Assembly (NCBI RefSeq): GCF_003129485.1
Contig: NZ_QFFG01000001.1
Span: forward strand, 1-64,000
Length of the DNA: 64,000 nt
Source: Polaribacter aquimarinus
GTDB taxonomy: Bacteria; Bacteroidota; Bacteroidia; Flavobacteriales; Flavobacteriaceae
Reading direction: 5' to 3'
Shown here: in pieces, positions 22,419 through 27,687 of the stretch
How the letters are laid out: each line of letters starts with the position of its first letter
Numbering within the stretch: the first letter of the stretch is position 1
Position numbers and translations under genes: made by a program
Notes under the pieces: generated by a model
What the model was told of the DNA's origin: nothing
Databases searched by the model: none
The model's input: only the letters and a program-made list of their open reading frames with translations

Positions 22419-23026
22419 AATAAATCTTCTTTTTTCGTGAATAATTGAGTTACATCTTCTTCTCCTGGAATTAAATTCCAAGTATGAATTCCAAGTAGAT
22501 TTGCAGCATCTGTATTCTCTTTTGTATCATCAATAAAAATAGTTTCTTCTGCGATTAAATTATTTTCATTCAATACAAACTTATAAATGTCTGCATTGGG
22601 TTTTTTTAAATGAATTTCATAAGTCAAATAAAATTTTTCAAAACAGCTTTTAAAATCATTATAAAGTTCCATTCCCCAATCTTTTTGAATCCAAGAAATG
22701 TGTAAATCGTTTGTATTGCTTAATAAAAACAATCTATATTTTTTACTTTCTGCCAACTTTTTTAAAAACTCTAATCGTTTTAAAGGAAAATCTAACAAAA
22801 TAGAATTCCAAGCTAAAACCAATGCTTCTTTAGGTTTTTTAAGATTTTGATTGAAAAAAGTTAAAAAATCTTCAGTAGAAATTAATCCCATTTCATAATC
22901 ATCTAAAATATTTTTTACTGCTTCATCTACTTGAGAAACACCTAATTTCTCTATCTCTTTTGCAAAGCGTTTTTTATCTAAGTTGATAAAAATATCGCCA
23001 AAATCGAAAATGATATTTTTAATCAT
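22415..23026 (-). CDS. HAD-superfamily phosphatase (YihX-like)
   Basis: The 203-residue protein has the HAD motifs in order: IIFDFGDIFINLD (motif I, nucleophile Asp9), LLSNTND (motif II), a lysine in HLKKPNADIY (motif III), and FIDDTKENTDAA (motif IV). The cap is the small helical C1 type seen in YihX, an alpha-D-glucose-1-phosphatase, and in haloacid dehalogenases. Substrate not determinable. It overlaps ribD by 8 bases at its start and the DMT gene by 4 bases at its end. Confidence 0.92.
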   Translation of the reverse strand: MIKNIIFDFGDIFINLDKKRFAKEIEKLGVSQVDEAVKNILDDYEMGLISTEDFLTFFNQNLKKPKEALVLAWNSILLDFPLKRLEFLKKLAESKKYRLFLLSNTNDLHISWIQKDWGMELYNDFKSCFEKFYLTYEIHLKKPNADIYKFVLNENNLIAEETIFIDDTKENTDAANLLGIHTWNLIPGEEDVTQLFTKKEDLF

Positions 23027-24083
23027 TTGAATATATTTTTAAAACATCTCTTTTAATGTTTTTCTCTTCTAAAACTGTTTTATTAAAAATTGGAGATTTT
23101 ACCCCCATTCCAAACTCACAATCACCTATAAAAATCATTGCTTCATCCCATAAGTTCTCATCAATAAATGTTTGTAATGTATGAGTACCTCCTTCTATAA
23201 TTAAAGATTGAATATGGTGTTTTTGTAAAACTTCACAAATTTGAGAAGCTATTTTTTTAGTAAAATCAATCTCTTCATAAATTAGTTGAGATTTCTCGAC
23301 ATTGTTCGAAATGACATTTTTATTCTTTAGACTTCTTGATTCTGTAATAACGATTGTCTTCACACTTTTATCAAAAACATTGGCGCTTTTTGGTATTCTT
23401 AAATTTCTATCCAATACAATTCTAATTGGATTTTCTCCATACCAACTTCTTACATTTAGTTTAGGGTTATCAGCAATAACCGTATTTGTCCCTACTAAAA
23501 TAGCGTGCTCTTTACTTCTTAATTGGTGCACTAATTGCTGTGAATAAGGATTGGAAATCCAAACGGGTCTGTTTTCGCCTTTGGTTAATGGAGCAATACA
23601 TCCATCTTTGGTTTCTGCCCATTTAAGCATAATAAAAGGTCTTTTTTTTTCTTGACTTGTAAAAAAACGTTTGTGATGCTCTCTACATTCATCTTCCAAT
23701 ACACCAACAACTACTTCTATTCCTGCTATTTTTAATCGCTCAATTCCTTTACCAGCAACCAAACTATTAGAATCTACACAACCAATAACCACTTTTTTAA
23801 ATTGATATTTTACAATTAAATCTGCACAAGGTGGTGTTTTACCAAAATGTGCACAAGGTTCTAAGGTTACATAAATTGTTGCTTCTTTTAAAAGTGATTT
23901 ATCTTTTACCGATTCAATTGCATTTACTTCGGCGTGTTTACCACTGTAAGAAGAAGTAAAACCTTCTCCTATAATTGTATCATTATAAACTACAACCGCG
24001 CCAACAGAAGGATTAGGACGTGCAGTTCCAATTCCATTTTTAGCGATTTGCAAACAACGTTTTATGTAAAACTCGTGATTAAT
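23019..24083 (-). CDS. ribD: Riboflavin biosynthesis deaminase/reductase RibD, apparent ATT start
   Basis: RibD deaminates the GTP-cyclohydrolase II product and reduces its ribosyl side chain in riboflavin synthesis. The deaminase domain shows the zinc motifs HAEVNAIE and CAHFGKTPPC; the reductase domain follows (MLKWAETKDGCIA, VGTNTVIADNPKLNVR). Canonical starts give only MQIAKNG from a TTG at 24053, which removes the conserved first helix. The frame upstream reads INHEFYIKRCLQIAKNG with ATT at 24083, just 3 bases after the stop of the upstream gene. I place the start there. About 15 residues in the reductase domain (NVISNNVEKS) are encoded by a dispersed hairpin repeat. Confidence 0.9.
   Translation of the reverse strand: MNHEFYIKRCLQIAKNGIGTARPNPSVGAVVVYNDTIIGEGFTSSYSGKHAEVNAIESVKDKSLLKEATIYVTLEPCAHFGKTPPCADLIVKYQFKKVVIGCVDSNSLVAGKGIERLKIAGIEVVVGVLEDECREHHKRFFTSQEKKRPFIMLKWAETKDGCIAPLTKGENRPVWISNPYSQQLVHQLRSKEHAILVGTNTVIADNPKLNVRSWYGENPIRIVLDRNLRIPKSANVFDKSVKTIVITESRSLKNKNVISNNVEKSQLIYEEIDFTKKIASQICEVLQKHHIQSLIIEGGTHTLQTFIDENLWDEAMIFIGDCEFGMGVKSPIFNKTVLEEKNIKRDVLKIYSND
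23288..23314. repeat. Hairpin repeat read in frame inside ribD
   Basis: GAGATTTCTCG and TCGAAATGAC match the covarying repeat family. On the ribD strand it reads GTC ATT TCG AAC ... GAG AAA TCT, giving VISNNVEKS. The same frame and strand sense are used by the copy in prmC. Confidence 0.8.
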
Positions 24084-24086
24084 AAC

Positions 24087-24551
24087 TTACAATTTAATCT
24101 TTATTTCTTGCGACTTATCTACAACAAATTCTTTCTTAAAACCAAAAACAACATATTCTAAATTACCTTTAATTCTAACATTTATCTTATTGGTTAAAAT
24201 AGAATTGATCAAACCTCCTAAAACTCCATTTTTGTTGGTATTTAATAATTTCTTAGTAGGTATACTTGCAAATAGCGGAATGGAGAATTCTTTTCTAGCG
24301 GGCACTTTAAATTCATCGGCAGTTACTTGTGCAACCTCATGTTCGTTCACCATAATTTGAATTTCATCTGTAGAAATTTTTCCGCCAACATCATTTGGAT
24401 TCTCGAAAAAAGCAAACGCTTTTAAAACGACTGTATCGCTTTTAATACTCACTAATTTTATATCATCAACTTTAATAAAAATAGGTTCTTTATTCACAGA
24501 ACAGCTTGTTATCAATAAAAATATAAAAGTAAAATATAGAAGATTTTTCAT
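24087..24551 (-). CDS. LEA-like (LEA14/WHy domain) lipoprotein
   Basis: The 154-residue protein has a signal peptide with lipobox ITSC (Cys17) and a beta-sandwich domain of the late-embryogenesis-abundant group-2 (LEA14/WHy) kind: ASFENPN-like FAFFENPNDVGGKIS, then EVAQVTADEFKVPARKEFSIPLFASIP. Bacterial members are small envelope lipoproteins of unknown role. It precedes ribD by 3 bases and shares its promoter (-7 box at 24587-24594). Confidence 0.75.
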   Translation of the reverse strand: MKNLLYFTFIFLLITSCSVNKEPIFIKVDDIKLVSIKSDTVVLKAFAFFENPNDVGGKISTDEIQIMVNEHEVAQVTADEFKVPARKEFSIPLFASIPTKKLLNTNKNGVLGGLINSILTNKINVRIKGNLEYVVFGFKKEFVVDKSQEIKIKL

Positions 24552-24586
24552 CTAAATAAATTAAAAAATTAGGTAAATTGCTCTTG

Positions 24587-24594
24587 CAAAAATA
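24587..24594 (-). promoter_or_regulatory. -7 box for the LEA lipoprotein-ribD-HAD-DMT-yigZ run
   Basis: TATTTTTG on the minus strand matches TAnnTTTG, 36 bases before the lipoprotein ATG. Confidence 0.5.
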
Positions 24595-24603
24595 CAGTAT
24601 TAA

Positions 24604-25095
24604 ATGACACCTCAAGATTTTATCATTCGAGAAATTCAACCTAAAGATAATCGTGAACTTGCAAAAGTTGTGAGAGCCGTTATTTTAGAAATGGGAGCTC
24701 CCAAGACAGGAACTGCTTACGAAGATAAAGCTACAGACCAAATGTTTGAAACCTATCAAAAAGAAAAAGCTATTTATTATGTGGTAGAACATGAAGGAAA
24801 AGTTGTTGGCGGAGCAGGAATTGCACAATTAGATAATTTTAAAGGCAATACTTGTGAATTGCAAAAAATGTATTTTTTGCCCATTGCAAGAGGAAAAGGA
24901 TTAGGCACCAAACTGATTTCTACCTGTTTAGAAAAAGCCAAAGAATTTGGTTTCGAAAACTGTTATTTAGAAACGCTTCCTTATATGAAAGCGGCCGTTA
25001 AATTGTATAAAAAATATGGTTTTACTGCTTTAGATGCACCAATGGGAAACACTTGCCACTATTCTTGTAACGTTTGGATGATTAAAAAAATATGA
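24604..25095 (+). CDS. GNAT-family N-acetyltransferase
   Basis: The 163-residue protein has a full GNAT core: IREIQPKDNRELAKVVRAVI at the start, the acetyl-CoA loop ARGKGLGTKLIS (about 97-108), and ENCYLETLPYMKAAVKLYKKYGF. The layout matches small-molecule acetyltransferases; the substrate is unknown. It overlaps prmC by 4 bases (ATGA) and is therefore co-translated with it. Confidence 0.9.
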   Translation: MTPQDFIIREIQPKDNRELAKVVRAVILEMGAPKTGTAYEDKATDQMFETYQKEKAIYYVVEHEGKVVGGAGIAQLDNFKGNTCELQKMYFLPIARGKGLGTKLISTCLEKAKEFGFENCYLETLPYMKAAVKLYKKYGFTALDAPMGNTCHYSCNVWMIKKI

Positions 25096-25979
25096 TTTTA
25101 AAAGAATTTAGAAACTATTTTTCGGAAGCACTTTCAGAAATCTATCCAAAAACAGAAATCGATACTTTTTTCTTTTTATTGATTGAAGAAAAACTTCATT
25201 TGCAAAGAATAGACACGGTTTTAAAACCAGATTTTTTAATTGATGATGACATGCTTCTTCGATTAAAAAACATTACAAAAAGATTACAAAAAGAAGAACC
25301 GATTCAATATATTTTAGGAAAAACGGAGTTCTATGGATTGCCTTTTATTGTAAATGAAAACACTTTGATACCAAGACCAGAAACAGAAGAATTGGTGGAG
25401 TGGATTATAAAAGAGATTCAAGAAAAAAGAATAAAGAGTAAGGATGTCATTTCGAATATTAATGAGAAATCTCTTTCAATTCTTGATATTGGAACAGGAA
25501 CAGGTTGTATCCCTATTTCATTAGCGAATAACCTAAAATGTGTAAAAATTTCTGCTATTGATGTCTCTAAAAAAGCTTTGCAAATTGCACGTAAAAACGC
25601 TAATTTAAATAATGCTGAAGTCGATTTTATAGAAATGGATATTTTAAATACTAACAAATTAAATCAGCAATATGATATTATTATTTCTAATCCTCCTTAT
25701 GTTCGAGAATTAGAAAAAGTTGAAATCAATAATAATGTGTTAGAAAATGAACCACATTTGGCTTTATTTGTTACTGATGAAAATCCACTAATCTTCTACA
25801 AAAAAATTACAGATTTAGCCAAACAACATCTTACTAAAAACGGAGTATTATTTTTTGAAATCAATCAATATTTAGGCAAAGAAACTGTTGAAATGTTAGC
25901 AGAAAAAGATTTTAAAAATATCATTCTTAAAAAAGATTTATTTGGGAACAATAGAATGCTAAAAGCGAGTTTCATTTAG
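25092..25979 (+). CDS. prmC: Release-factor glutamine methyltransferase PrmC
   Basis: PrmC methylates the GGQ glutamine of release factors 1 and 2. The 295-residue protein has the N-terminal helical domain (EPIQYILGKTEFYGLPFIV...NTLIPRPETEELVEWI), the SAM motif SILDIGTGTGCIPISLA and the catalytic IISNPPYVRE. Between the two domains there are about 15 extra residues (KSKDVISNINEKS) made by a dispersed hairpin repeat at 25446-25474 that is read in frame. The insert sits in a surface linker and need not harm function. Confidence 0.95.
   Translation: MILKEFRNYFSEALSEIYPKTEIDTFFFLLIEEKLHLQRIDTVLKPDFLIDDDMLLRLKNITKRLQKEEPIQYILGKTEFYGLPFIVNENTLIPRPETEELVEWIIKEIQEKRIKSKDVISNINEKSLSILDIGTGTGCIPISLANNLKCVKISAIDVSKKALQIARKNANLNNAEVDFIEMDILNTNKLNQQYDIIISNPPYVRELEKVEINNNVLENEPHLALFVTDENPLIFYKKITDLAKQHLTKNGVLFFEINQYLGKETVEMLAEKDFKNIILKKDLFGNNRMLKASFI
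25446..25474. repeat. Hairpin repeat read in frame inside prmC
   Basis: GTCATTTCGAA...GAGAAATCTC is the same element as in ribD, here on the plus strand in the sense direction. It reads GTC ATT TCG AAT ... GAG AAA TCT, giving VISNINEKS. Confidence 0.8.
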
Positions 25980-26007
25980 TTTGTTTCTAAACTTATTTTC
26001 TGATAAC

Positions 26008-26066
26008 TTCGCTAACTACGAATATAAAACATTGAAACGTTGCATATTCGTCACTACGTTAGCGAA
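26008..26066. repeat. Large imperfect inverted repeat after prmC
   Basis: TTCGCTAAC-TA-CGAATAT is complementary to ATATTCG-TCACTAC-GTTAGCGAA, with an 18-base loop and a bulge on one arm. It is related to no other element found in the window. It could act as a 3' end for the GNAT-prmC message. Confidence 0.8.
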
Positions 26067-26118
26067 TCTTCCAGTAAATTCTATTGAATTATCATCAATA
26101 CTCAGTCTTTAATTTGAT

Positions 26119-26126
26119 TACTTTTG
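26119..26126 (+). promoter_or_regulatory. -7 box abutting the flavoprotein start
   Basis: TACTTTTG matches TAnnTTTG and ends 4 bases before the ATG at 26131, suggesting a leaderless message. Confidence 0.55.
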
Positions 26127-26130
26127 CAGA

Positions 26131-27687
26131 ATGGTTAAAGAAATTCAACTTCGTGTAAATTTAATTGAAGAACGTAAAGAGAATACGCTATTATATAAAG
26201 CTGCAAAACAATTAGGTGTTGAAACCTCAGAAATAACTGCAGTAAAAGTGTTACGTAAATCAATTGATGCTCGTAAAAAAAACATCATCTTTAATTATAA
26301 AGTTGCGGTATACATAAACGAAGCCGTTCCTGAAAAATCGGATTATATTTTTGAGTATAAAGACGTTTCTAAGGCTAAAGAAATTCACATTGTTGGTTTT
26401 GGTCCTGCAGGAATGTATGCAGCTTTGCGTTGCATAGAATTGGGGTACAAACCTATAGTCTTAGAACGTGGAAAAAACGTACAAGACAGACGTAGAGATT
26501 TACGTGCAATTAATCAAGAACATTTTGTAAACGAAGATTCTAATTATTGTTTTGGTGAAGGTGGTGCAGGAACCTATTCTGATGGAAAATTGTATACACG
26601 TTCTTTGAAAAGAGGTGATGTTCGTAGAATTTTCGAAAATTTAGTTTTTCACGGAGCTACAGAACAAATTCTAATTGATGCACATCCACATATTGGAACG
26701 AATAAATTACCAAAAATCATTCAGAATATTCGTGAGAATATCTTAAAGTTTGGTGGCGAAATTCATTTTGAAACGAGAGTGACAGATTTTATTGTTAAGA
26801 ACAACAAATTACTTGCCATTCAGCTTCAAAATGGAGAAGAAATGACTGTAAATTCTGTAATTTTAGCTACGGGGCATTCAGCGAGAGATATTTACGAATT
26901 GTTGCACAAAAAAGAAATCGCTTTAAAAGCAAAATCTTTTGCAATGGGTGTTCGTGTAGAACATCCGCAAGAAATTATCGACCAAATTCAATATCATTGT
27001 TCTGGCGAAAGAGACGAATTGTTACCTGCGGCCGCTTACAGTTTGGTGCATCAAGTAAACAACAGAGGGGTATATTCTTTTTGCATGTGTCCTGGCGGAT
27101 TTATAGTTCCTGCAGCCACGGCAAATGGCGAAGTTGTTGTAAACGGAATGTCTCCTTCTCGTAGAAATAATAAGTTTGCCAATTCTGGTATTGTGGTTGA
27201 ATTAGATATTGACAAAGATTTTAAAAAGTACGAACATTTAGGTGCTTTAAAAGGATTACAATTTCAAAAAGATTTAGAAAAAATTGCTTTTTATGCAGGT
27301 GGTAGAACGCAAACTGCACCCGCTCAAAGATTGGTAGATTTTGTAGATGGAAAACTCTCTCCAGAATTAAACGATTGTTCTTATCAGCCAGGTTTAAAAT
27401 CGGCTCCACTACACTCGCTTTTACCAAAAATTATTGGAAGTAGATTGCGAAAAGGCTTTGCAGCATTCGGTCAAAAAATGCACGGTTATCATACAAATGA
27501 AGCCAATATTATTGGTGTAGAATCTAGAACTTCATCCCCGGTTAATATTCCAAGAAAAGAAAATTTAGAGCACACAGAAATAGAAGGTTTATTTCCTTGT
27601 GGAGAAGGTGGTGGTTATGCTGGTGGAATTGTTTCTGCCGCTATGGACGGCGAACGTTGTGCCGAAGCTGCCATTGCTAAATCTTAG
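26131..27687 (+). CDS. FAD-dependent oxidoreductase of the COG2509 type
   Basis: The 518-residue protein has an N-terminal RNA-binding-like or ferredoxin-like domain (1-85), a Rossmann motif HIVGFGPAGMYAALR near 88-102, GEGGAGTYSDGKLYTR, a substrate region with FCMCPGGFIVPAATANGEVVVNGMS, and the C-terminal GLFPCGEGGGYAGGIVSAAMDGE FAD site. This is a widely conserved bacterial family annotated only as NAD(P)/FAD-dependent dehydrogenase, with no proven reaction. It is a single gene with its own promoter. Confidence 0.88.
   Translation: MVKEIQLRVNLIEERKENTLLYKAAKQLGVETSEITAVKVLRKSIDARKKNIIFNYKVAVYINEAVPEKSDYIFEYKDVSKAKEIHIVGFGPAGMYAALRCIELGYKPIVLERGKNVQDRRRDLRAINQEHFVNEDSNYCFGEGGAGTYSDGKLYTRSLKRGDVRRIFENLVFHGATEQILIDAHPHIGTNKLPKIIQNIRENILKFGGEIHFETRVTDFIVKNNKLLAIQLQNGEEMTVNSVILATGHSARDIYELLHKKEIALKAKSFAMGVRVEHPQEIIDQIQYHCSGERDELLPAAAYSLVHQVNNRGVYSFCMCPGGFIVPAATANGEVVVNGMSPSRRNNKFANSGIVVELDIDKDFKKYEHLGALKGLQFQKDLEKIAFYAGGRTQTAPAQRLVDFVDGKLSPELNDCSYQPGLKSAPLHSLLPKIIGSRLRKGFAAFGQKMHGYHTNEANIIGVESRTSSPVNIPRKENLEHTEIEGLFPCGEGGGYAGGIVSAAMDGERCAEAAIAKS

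Follow-up and report, generated by a model that had tools for sequence, protein, structure and literature searches.

A short repeat in ribD and prmC

We analysed the first 64,000 nucleotides (nt) of contig NZ_QFFG01000001.1 of Polaribacter aquimarinus (the window), in which a short repeat lies inside the genes of two presumably essential enzymes, RibD and PrmC (Table 1). Both proteins score above NCBIfam cut-offs (RibD for TIGR00326, 286.6 bits; PrmC for TIGR03534, 245.9 bits). Each copy of the repeat has a 27-nt core; both are read as sense and share one phase, GTC ATT TCG AAY, which yields a peptide of the form VIS..EKS. The original prediction, made from the letters of the window alone, had described such an element in the same orientation and frame in both genes; the loci and the shared phase were borne out, and the ends, which had been placed one or two bases off, are given exactly in Table 1.

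We searched the window for GTCATTTCGA and GAGAAATCT separated by 2 to 12 nt, with 100 dinucleotide-preserving shuffles as the null. The two-part motif GTCATTTCGA-N8-GAGAAATCT occurred twice, and none of the 100 shuffles contained a match. Each half-motif alone was weakly enriched: GTCATTTCGA with at most one mismatch was found 8 times where 3.5 were expected, a number that 7 of 100 shuffles reached, and GAGAAATCT 4 times against 1.1 expected (3 of 100 shuffles had as many). The AT richness of the sequence and this weak enrichment are what could be said for a chance resemblance of two AT-rich stretches; set against the empty shuffles for the whole motif, 14 copies genome-wide where a reversed control pattern gave none, and up to 187 copies in one relative, they leave chance with practically no probability, and we rejected it. 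Positions 22500-26500 of the window had no Rfam match at the gathering threshold. In sequence alignments to solved structures, the PrmC peptide fell between the RPETEELV region and DIGTG, within a 13-residue gap in the alignment to T. maritima HemK, and the RibD peptide in a poorly aligned stretch of the reductase domain.

Table 1. Coordinates of the repeat copies, their host genes and the transposase gene discussed in the text
Feature	Position	Strand	Remarks
Repeat core, 27 nt, in ribD	23289..23315	-	VISNNVEKS, RibD residues 247-255 of 344
Presumed 30-nt unit in ribD	23287-23316	-	core plus 1 base before and 2 after
Repeat core, 27 nt, in prmC	25446..25472	+	VISNINEKS, PrmC residues 119-127 of 295
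Presumed 30-nt unit in prmC	25445-25474	+
ribD, host gene, bifunctional deaminase/reductase	23019..24053	-	insert in reductase part; RibD_C matches 139-316
prmC, host gene, release factor glutamine methyltransferase	25092..25979	+	insert between RPETEELV and ILDIGTGTG
Repeat copy in TIGR04282 gene	L043:4593-4622		overlaps likely start codon
Y1/RAYT transposase gene	L043:6752-7396 = G000:C1:766751-767395

Dispersal in the genome, the genus and beyond

The P. aquimarinus genome (G000; 3.37 Mb in 20 contigs) held 14 exact-ended copies of the repeat, 17 when the ends were slightly relaxed and 24 with a broader pattern, under which core lengths of 25-49 nt occurred; the reversed control gave 0 each time. 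All four exact-ended copies with a 27-nt core are coding: those in RibD and PrmC, one in an Eco57I-like protein (locus L044), and one at the predicted N-terminus of a TIGR04282 protein. The Eco57I-like protein carries VISSAVEKS, so that a search for further proteins with a VISN-x-x-EKS type of peptide, proposed with the original prediction, found one in this genome and more in relatives.

Copies were present in 62 of 116 genomes of the genus (P. aquimarinus included), at 1 to 187 per genome, a patchy spread when genomes holding 0 are counted in. Across the wider family, with locus L501 left out, the 27-nt form was found in 29 of 299 genomes and in 27 of 236 genera. The repeat had been called a flavobacterial family; the name is too narrow for the DNA motif, which among the matches listed also occurs in contigs labelled Clostridia, Spirochaetes, Chloroflexi, Proteobacteria and others, many from metagenome bins. 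A scan of named genomes examined 80 loci with 100 copies; among the matches listed, 14 copies overlapped an open reading frame (ORF) of at least 200 codons, mostly near ORF ends or in competing frames, and two lay mid-protein with Pfam support (L276, VISSEVEKS; L312, QISRQARND).

Probable insertion at the two sites

We compared the RibD-PrmC region in 80 of the 108 other genus genomes with a RibD match, together with that of P. aquimarinus; the stretch from G004 held no PrmC. Clear RibD copies were present in 10 of 81 sequences (G000, G005, G020, G042, G043, G048, G089, G093, G097 and G124), those of G043, G048, G093 and G124 being recognised by eye, outside the search pattern. G015 was doubtful, with a possible remnant, and G120 provided no data at this site. 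Clear PrmC copies numbered 3 of 80 (G000, G083 and G091), with maybe decayed copies in G111 and G043 and a possible remnant in G005. Among 15 genomes of the same order that were searched, the peptide was absent from the 7 RibD and 7 PrmC sequences displayed.

At each of the two sites, copies occur in separate clades of the genus. In trees built with the linker columns removed and G120, G004, G056 and G111 left out, the fewest gains plus losses that parsimony allowed came to 7 for the RibD label and 3 for that of PrmC, and the nearest relatives of two PrmC carriers lacked the copy (G114 for G091 and G108 for G083; support 1.0, RibD+PrmC tree). Some RibD copies are shared: G000 and its sister genome G005 both have one, as do five of the eight members of one clade. 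Because G005 has a shorter, remnant-like stretch at the PrmC site, insertion there may be older than the split of G000 and G005. In other species the same RibD and PrmC stretches hold different repeat-like peptides (KGFQPLEN, KVAKSL and EPFDSAHDKL), and therefore look like general repeat sinks.

The original prediction had named conservation of the peptide in distant RibD and PrmC as the finding that would overturn it; instead, the alignments place the peptide in a minority of the genus and in none of the same-order sequences displayed. An ancestral, conserved part of both enzymes could draw on the shared RibD copies, but the low counts, the empty outgroups and the carriage of the same DNA by unrelated proteins make it scarcely credible, and we rejected it. 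Judged from these alignments, the VIS..EKS peptides of RibD and PrmC are not ancestral and are very probably insertions.

Several features of these regions were recorded in passing. RibD is 92% identical between G000 and G005 and PrmC just 72-73%, a gap that suggests recombination or uneven divergence at one gene. The orthologous intergenic spacers L372/L045, L403/L050 and L415/L051 (G005/G000) hold different sets of this and related repeats, and spacer L406/L052 has one copy in common. PrmC of G013 (L227) is split over two frames with stops between, possibly through sequencing error, and has an element-like stretch in its second part. RibD of G078, G083 and G099 (L228-L230) carries about 22-32 extra residues of unrelated sequence at a second site, located early in the reductase domain around residue 156.

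Length class and reading frame of copies within ORFs

To avoid choosing cases, we classed every copy matching GTCAYTTCGAN{3,26}GAGAARTCT in two relatives and in stretches of a third, a census of 146 copies (47 from G005, 58 from G021, and 41 of the 187 of G051). A copy was called internal if it lay inside an ORF of at least 140 codons with an upstream start codon, a definition that left out two N-terminal copies (L378 and L440). The base before GTC was T in 40 of 41 copies with a 27-nt core, 62 of 62 with a 26-nt core and 26 of 26 with a 37-nt core (128 of 129 overall), and in the 27-nt class GAGAAATCT was followed by T or C in 36 of 41 and then by A in 34 of 41. The unit of this class would thus be about 30 nt, a multiple of three, of the form TGTC-ATTTCGA-N8-GAGAAATCT-YA; those of the 26- and 37-nt classes are not multiples of three.

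Fourteen of the 146 copies were internal: 11/41 of the 27-nt class, 2/62 of the 26-nt class (both in PurL), 0/26 of the 37-nt class and 1/17 of the others. The excess in the 27-nt class (11/41 against 3/105; Fisher p = 5e-5) was accompanied by a bias in frame, with 8 of the 11 internal copies in the VIS..EKS frame (binomial p = 2e-4 for one of five open frames); both p values are optimistic, because orthologous sites (MobA, PurL) are counted repeatedly and RibD of G005 is the discovery gene. In these relatives the shared frame stands as a preference and not as a rule. Outside the genus but within the family, 6 of 33 copies (28 loci) were internal, five of them in the VIS..EKS frame.

Stop codons alone do not explain the choice of frame, because several frames are open in most 27-nt copies (three in 41/41, a fourth in 38 and a fifth in 19). 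What sets the VIS..EKS frame apart is its peptide, which lacks F, W, Y and C in all 41 copies, as against 2 of 41 for one other frame and none for the rest. Among 26-nt copies, 39 of 62 lack these residues in the antisense KISPQGRND frame, the one found in PurL and in a type IA topoisomerase, and 2 of 62 lack them in a second frame. Absence of F/W/Y/C, a criterion chosen after the frames had been seen, fits the bias, and the pattern may reflect survival of the least disruptive peptide. Hydropathy was rejected as its cause, VISSAVEKS being among the more hydrophobic peptides.

Host proteins and places of insertion

Beyond RibD and PrmC, genes appear to have been invaded and a repeat peptide tolerated, as had been proposed, in MetH, PurL, thymidine kinase, TrpF and, in other genera, MnmE. 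Pfam matches place the insert immediately before the glutamine amidotransferase domain in PurL, between the E3-binding and catalytic domains in an E2 acyltransferase, after the kinase domain in thymidine kinase, and outside named domains in a Kdo transferase and the Eco57I-like protein; in a methylmalonyl-CoA mutase fusion of another genus it lies downstream of the MeaB-like domain. Two hosts showed further peculiarities. A type IA DNA topoisomerase of two genomes (L123, L144) contains several different repeat copies, in both orientations, read in frame. MetH of one genus member (L133) contains, in frame at residues 106-211 and between two B12-binding subdomains, a DUF559 endonuclease-like domain (PF04480, E 7.7e-37), for which MetH of G005 (L386) has no match at that place.

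In the TIGR04282 protein of P. aquimarinus the repeat forms the predicted N-terminus, MSFRAHSRNLLLIF, as it does in G005; G042, in a separate clade, has a copy in the same place, and that of G043 is shortened. Among the 28 readable loci (of 30), 24 begin with M...KN and continue with LLLIF or a close variant. Such starts bear on the proposal that host AAATCT words admit copies through microhomology or template switching and thereby fix both site and reading frame. A native start such as ATGAATAAAAATCTT (L459) and invaded forms in which AAATCT meets the TG of the start codon are what this proposal would predict, and among native PrmC dipeptides at the junction K-S ranks second in frequency (6/77). 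Yet AA[AG]TCT stands at the junction in just 5 of the 77 PrmC genes that have no clear copy, AAATCT is missing from many native starts of the TIGR04282 gene, and such words are likely by chance in AT-rich genes. We set microhomology aside as too weak a determinant of site and frame and consider this route of entry unlikely.

VIS..EKS recurs at fixed positions of RibD and PrmC across separate clades, and MnmE of two genera carries it at a shared position. This might instead mean that the peptide has a positive function, serving for example as a binding or degradation tag, and that it is retained and arose repeatedly for that reason. The same stretches, however, hold the unrelated repeat peptides listed above, other frames and the 26-nt KISPQGRND peptide occur as well, copies in G043, G111 and G015 look decayed by eye, and neutrality of the frame accounts for the bias with no function invoked. 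We regard a positive function as improbable.

Folding, pairing and a candidate mobiliser

The element had been described as a hairpin, a description that single copies do not support. Six units folded as DNA did no clearly better than 200 shuffles (z -0.79 to +0.55), the two in the window scoring z +0.52 and +0.28, and we rejected a single-copy hairpin. Three chosen intergenic inverted pairs of about 90 nt, by comparison, gave strong folds (z -4.1 to -5.4), unmatched in each case by any of 200 shuffles. Within 110 nt, 49 of 60 extragenic 26-nt copies and 26 of 26 37-nt copies had an inverted partner under relaxed matching, as against 12 of 30 extragenic and 0 of 11 internal 27-nt copies. The two 26-nt copies of PurL belong to a pair, and all 11 intragenic 27-nt copies are single.

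A transposase search of the P. aquimarinus genome for the Y1_Tnp type gave one match, of RAYT type (25 bits; cut-off 23). This gene lies about 2.2 kb from one repeat copy, with a degenerate second repeat nearby (L043:3997-4025), and RAYTs are thought to mobilise GTAG-type repetitive extragenic palindromes (REPs), and it is a candidate mobiliser of the present repeat. Its flanks weigh against this: 29-nt palindromes, ACCTTTCAGGTTTTAAAAACCTGAAAGGT and ACCCTTCAGGTTTTGAAAACCTGAAGGGT, unrelated to the repeat, border it on both sides. We accordingly rejected this RAYT as the owner of the repeat, and that it mobilises the repeat seems unlikely. A DUF559 endonuclease, an idea taken from the MetH of another genome, was rejected as mobiliser, PF04480 having no match in the P. 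aquimarinus genome.

Comparison with known repeats

Polaribacter is marine and free-living, unlike Rickettsia, with whose palindromic elements (RPEs) a parallel had been drawn. Compared by description, the parallel holds in that a dispersed repeat lies in frame inside many unrelated genes in both. RPEs (Ogata 2000, 2002), as a review summarises them, are about 150 bp long (PMC10969869), whereas the present repeat has a 27-nt core and a unit of about 30 nt, unfolded as a single copy. Two short CGTC repeats of Rickettsia, RPE-4 and RPE-6, have been placed in the superfamily of CGTC-tagged REPs (Di Nocera et al. 2013), for which the main-text parts of that paper name Bacteroidetes among the phyla, report no known transposase, mention intragenic members in several bacteria, and describe a unit with an 8-9 bp stem, a 4-5 nt loop, an unpaired CGTC, TGTC or CCTC tag and a short tail fitting CCA (PMC3733652).

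Measured against that description, our repeat shares a tag of this kind (TGTC), a short unit, the lack of a Y1_Tnp transposase gene flanked by it, a presence of some copies in genes, and a predominance of inverted pairs in the 26- and 37-nt classes, less so in the 27-nt class. Its single copies do not form the 8-9 bp stem with a 4-5 nt loop. In the main-text parts of the paper neither a filter by length class or frame nor the string "Flavobacter-" was seen (PMC3733652). GTAG REPs with RAYT are likewise described as short dispersed units, often in inverted pairs (PMC6006769, PMC3733652), but our repeat lacks a GTAG/GTGG tag and does not flank the RAYT gene of its own genome. In the titles and abstracts of the open-licence papers listed, this repeat was not described in Polaribacter or Flavobacteriaceae genes. 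We regard it as a REP-like family that works like the RPEs and as a proven member of neither class.

Interpretation and meaning

We consider it very probable that the RibD and PrmC segments are insertions of a dispersed, REP-like, non-autonomous repeat that is tolerated where its length and frame do no harm. The repeat is scattered in the genome and the genus, is missing at the same sites in most relatives examined, and recurs at both sites in separate clades; its ORF-internal copies in the three census relatives come mostly from the class with a unit length divisible by three and mostly share one frame. A putative trans-acting process would spread copies, which would land widely, and copies that caused a frameshift, interrupted a folded core or added a harmful peptide would be purged. 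The survivors in genes would be those adding a nearly neutral peptide of nine residues with no bulky aromatics or cysteine.

Several observations weigh against this reading. The element had been called mobile, and its scatter and its patchiness by site agree with that, but neither a transposition event nor a mobiliser was observed: the RAYT gene has other palindromes at its flanks, and the repeat class that ours resembles has no known dedicated transposase in the source parts cited (PMC3733652). Comparison of G000 with G005 did not isolate a clean 30-nt empty site, the genes and spacers differing by other indels. The census is small, at 146 copies from three relatives, besides its optimistic p values and its post hoc residue criterion, and other readings than VIS..EKS also lie inside ORFs: the 27-nt class has two that read CHFERSREI in sense and one that reads RDFSTSLEMT in antisense, and a copy outside the genus reads RFLTNVRND in antisense. 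Position is less clear-cut than the original prediction had it. An inter-motif linker agrees with the PrmC gap relative to HemK, but inserts lie within a Pfam domain span in RibD, the MetH activation domain, the MobA-like transferase and TrpF and, in other genera, in MnmE (the same place in two genera) and mevalonate diphosphate decarboxylase; in these a loop position is inferred.

A more far-reaching proposal, which we hold only tentatively and think doubtful, is that the 27-nt-core form is a gene-adapted subfamily that persists in coding DNA as a selfish peptide, with the RibD, PrmC, MetH, MobA and MnmE stretches as recurrent landing pads. Such persistence could follow from a unit of about 30 nt made of whole codons, with one open frame that is F/W/Y/C-free in 41/41 copies. 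If so, this form would have an intein-like lifestyle without splicing, and its sister 26- and 37-nt forms would live mostly as intergenic hairpin pairs.

In-frame invasion of genes by short repeats is best known from the intracellular Rickettsia, with intragenic REPs in several other bacteria as far as the cited source parts describe them (PMC3733652). Here the invasion recurs across a genus and reaches core enzymes; copies run to hundreds, and many orthologous sites without one are there for comparison. The tolerance of genes for new peptides thereby becomes a countable natural experiment, in which every surviving copy can be scored by length class, frame and position. Short insertions in RibD, PrmC, MetH, PurL, MnmE and further proteins of this group may be derived from repeats and are not to be taken as functional motifs.

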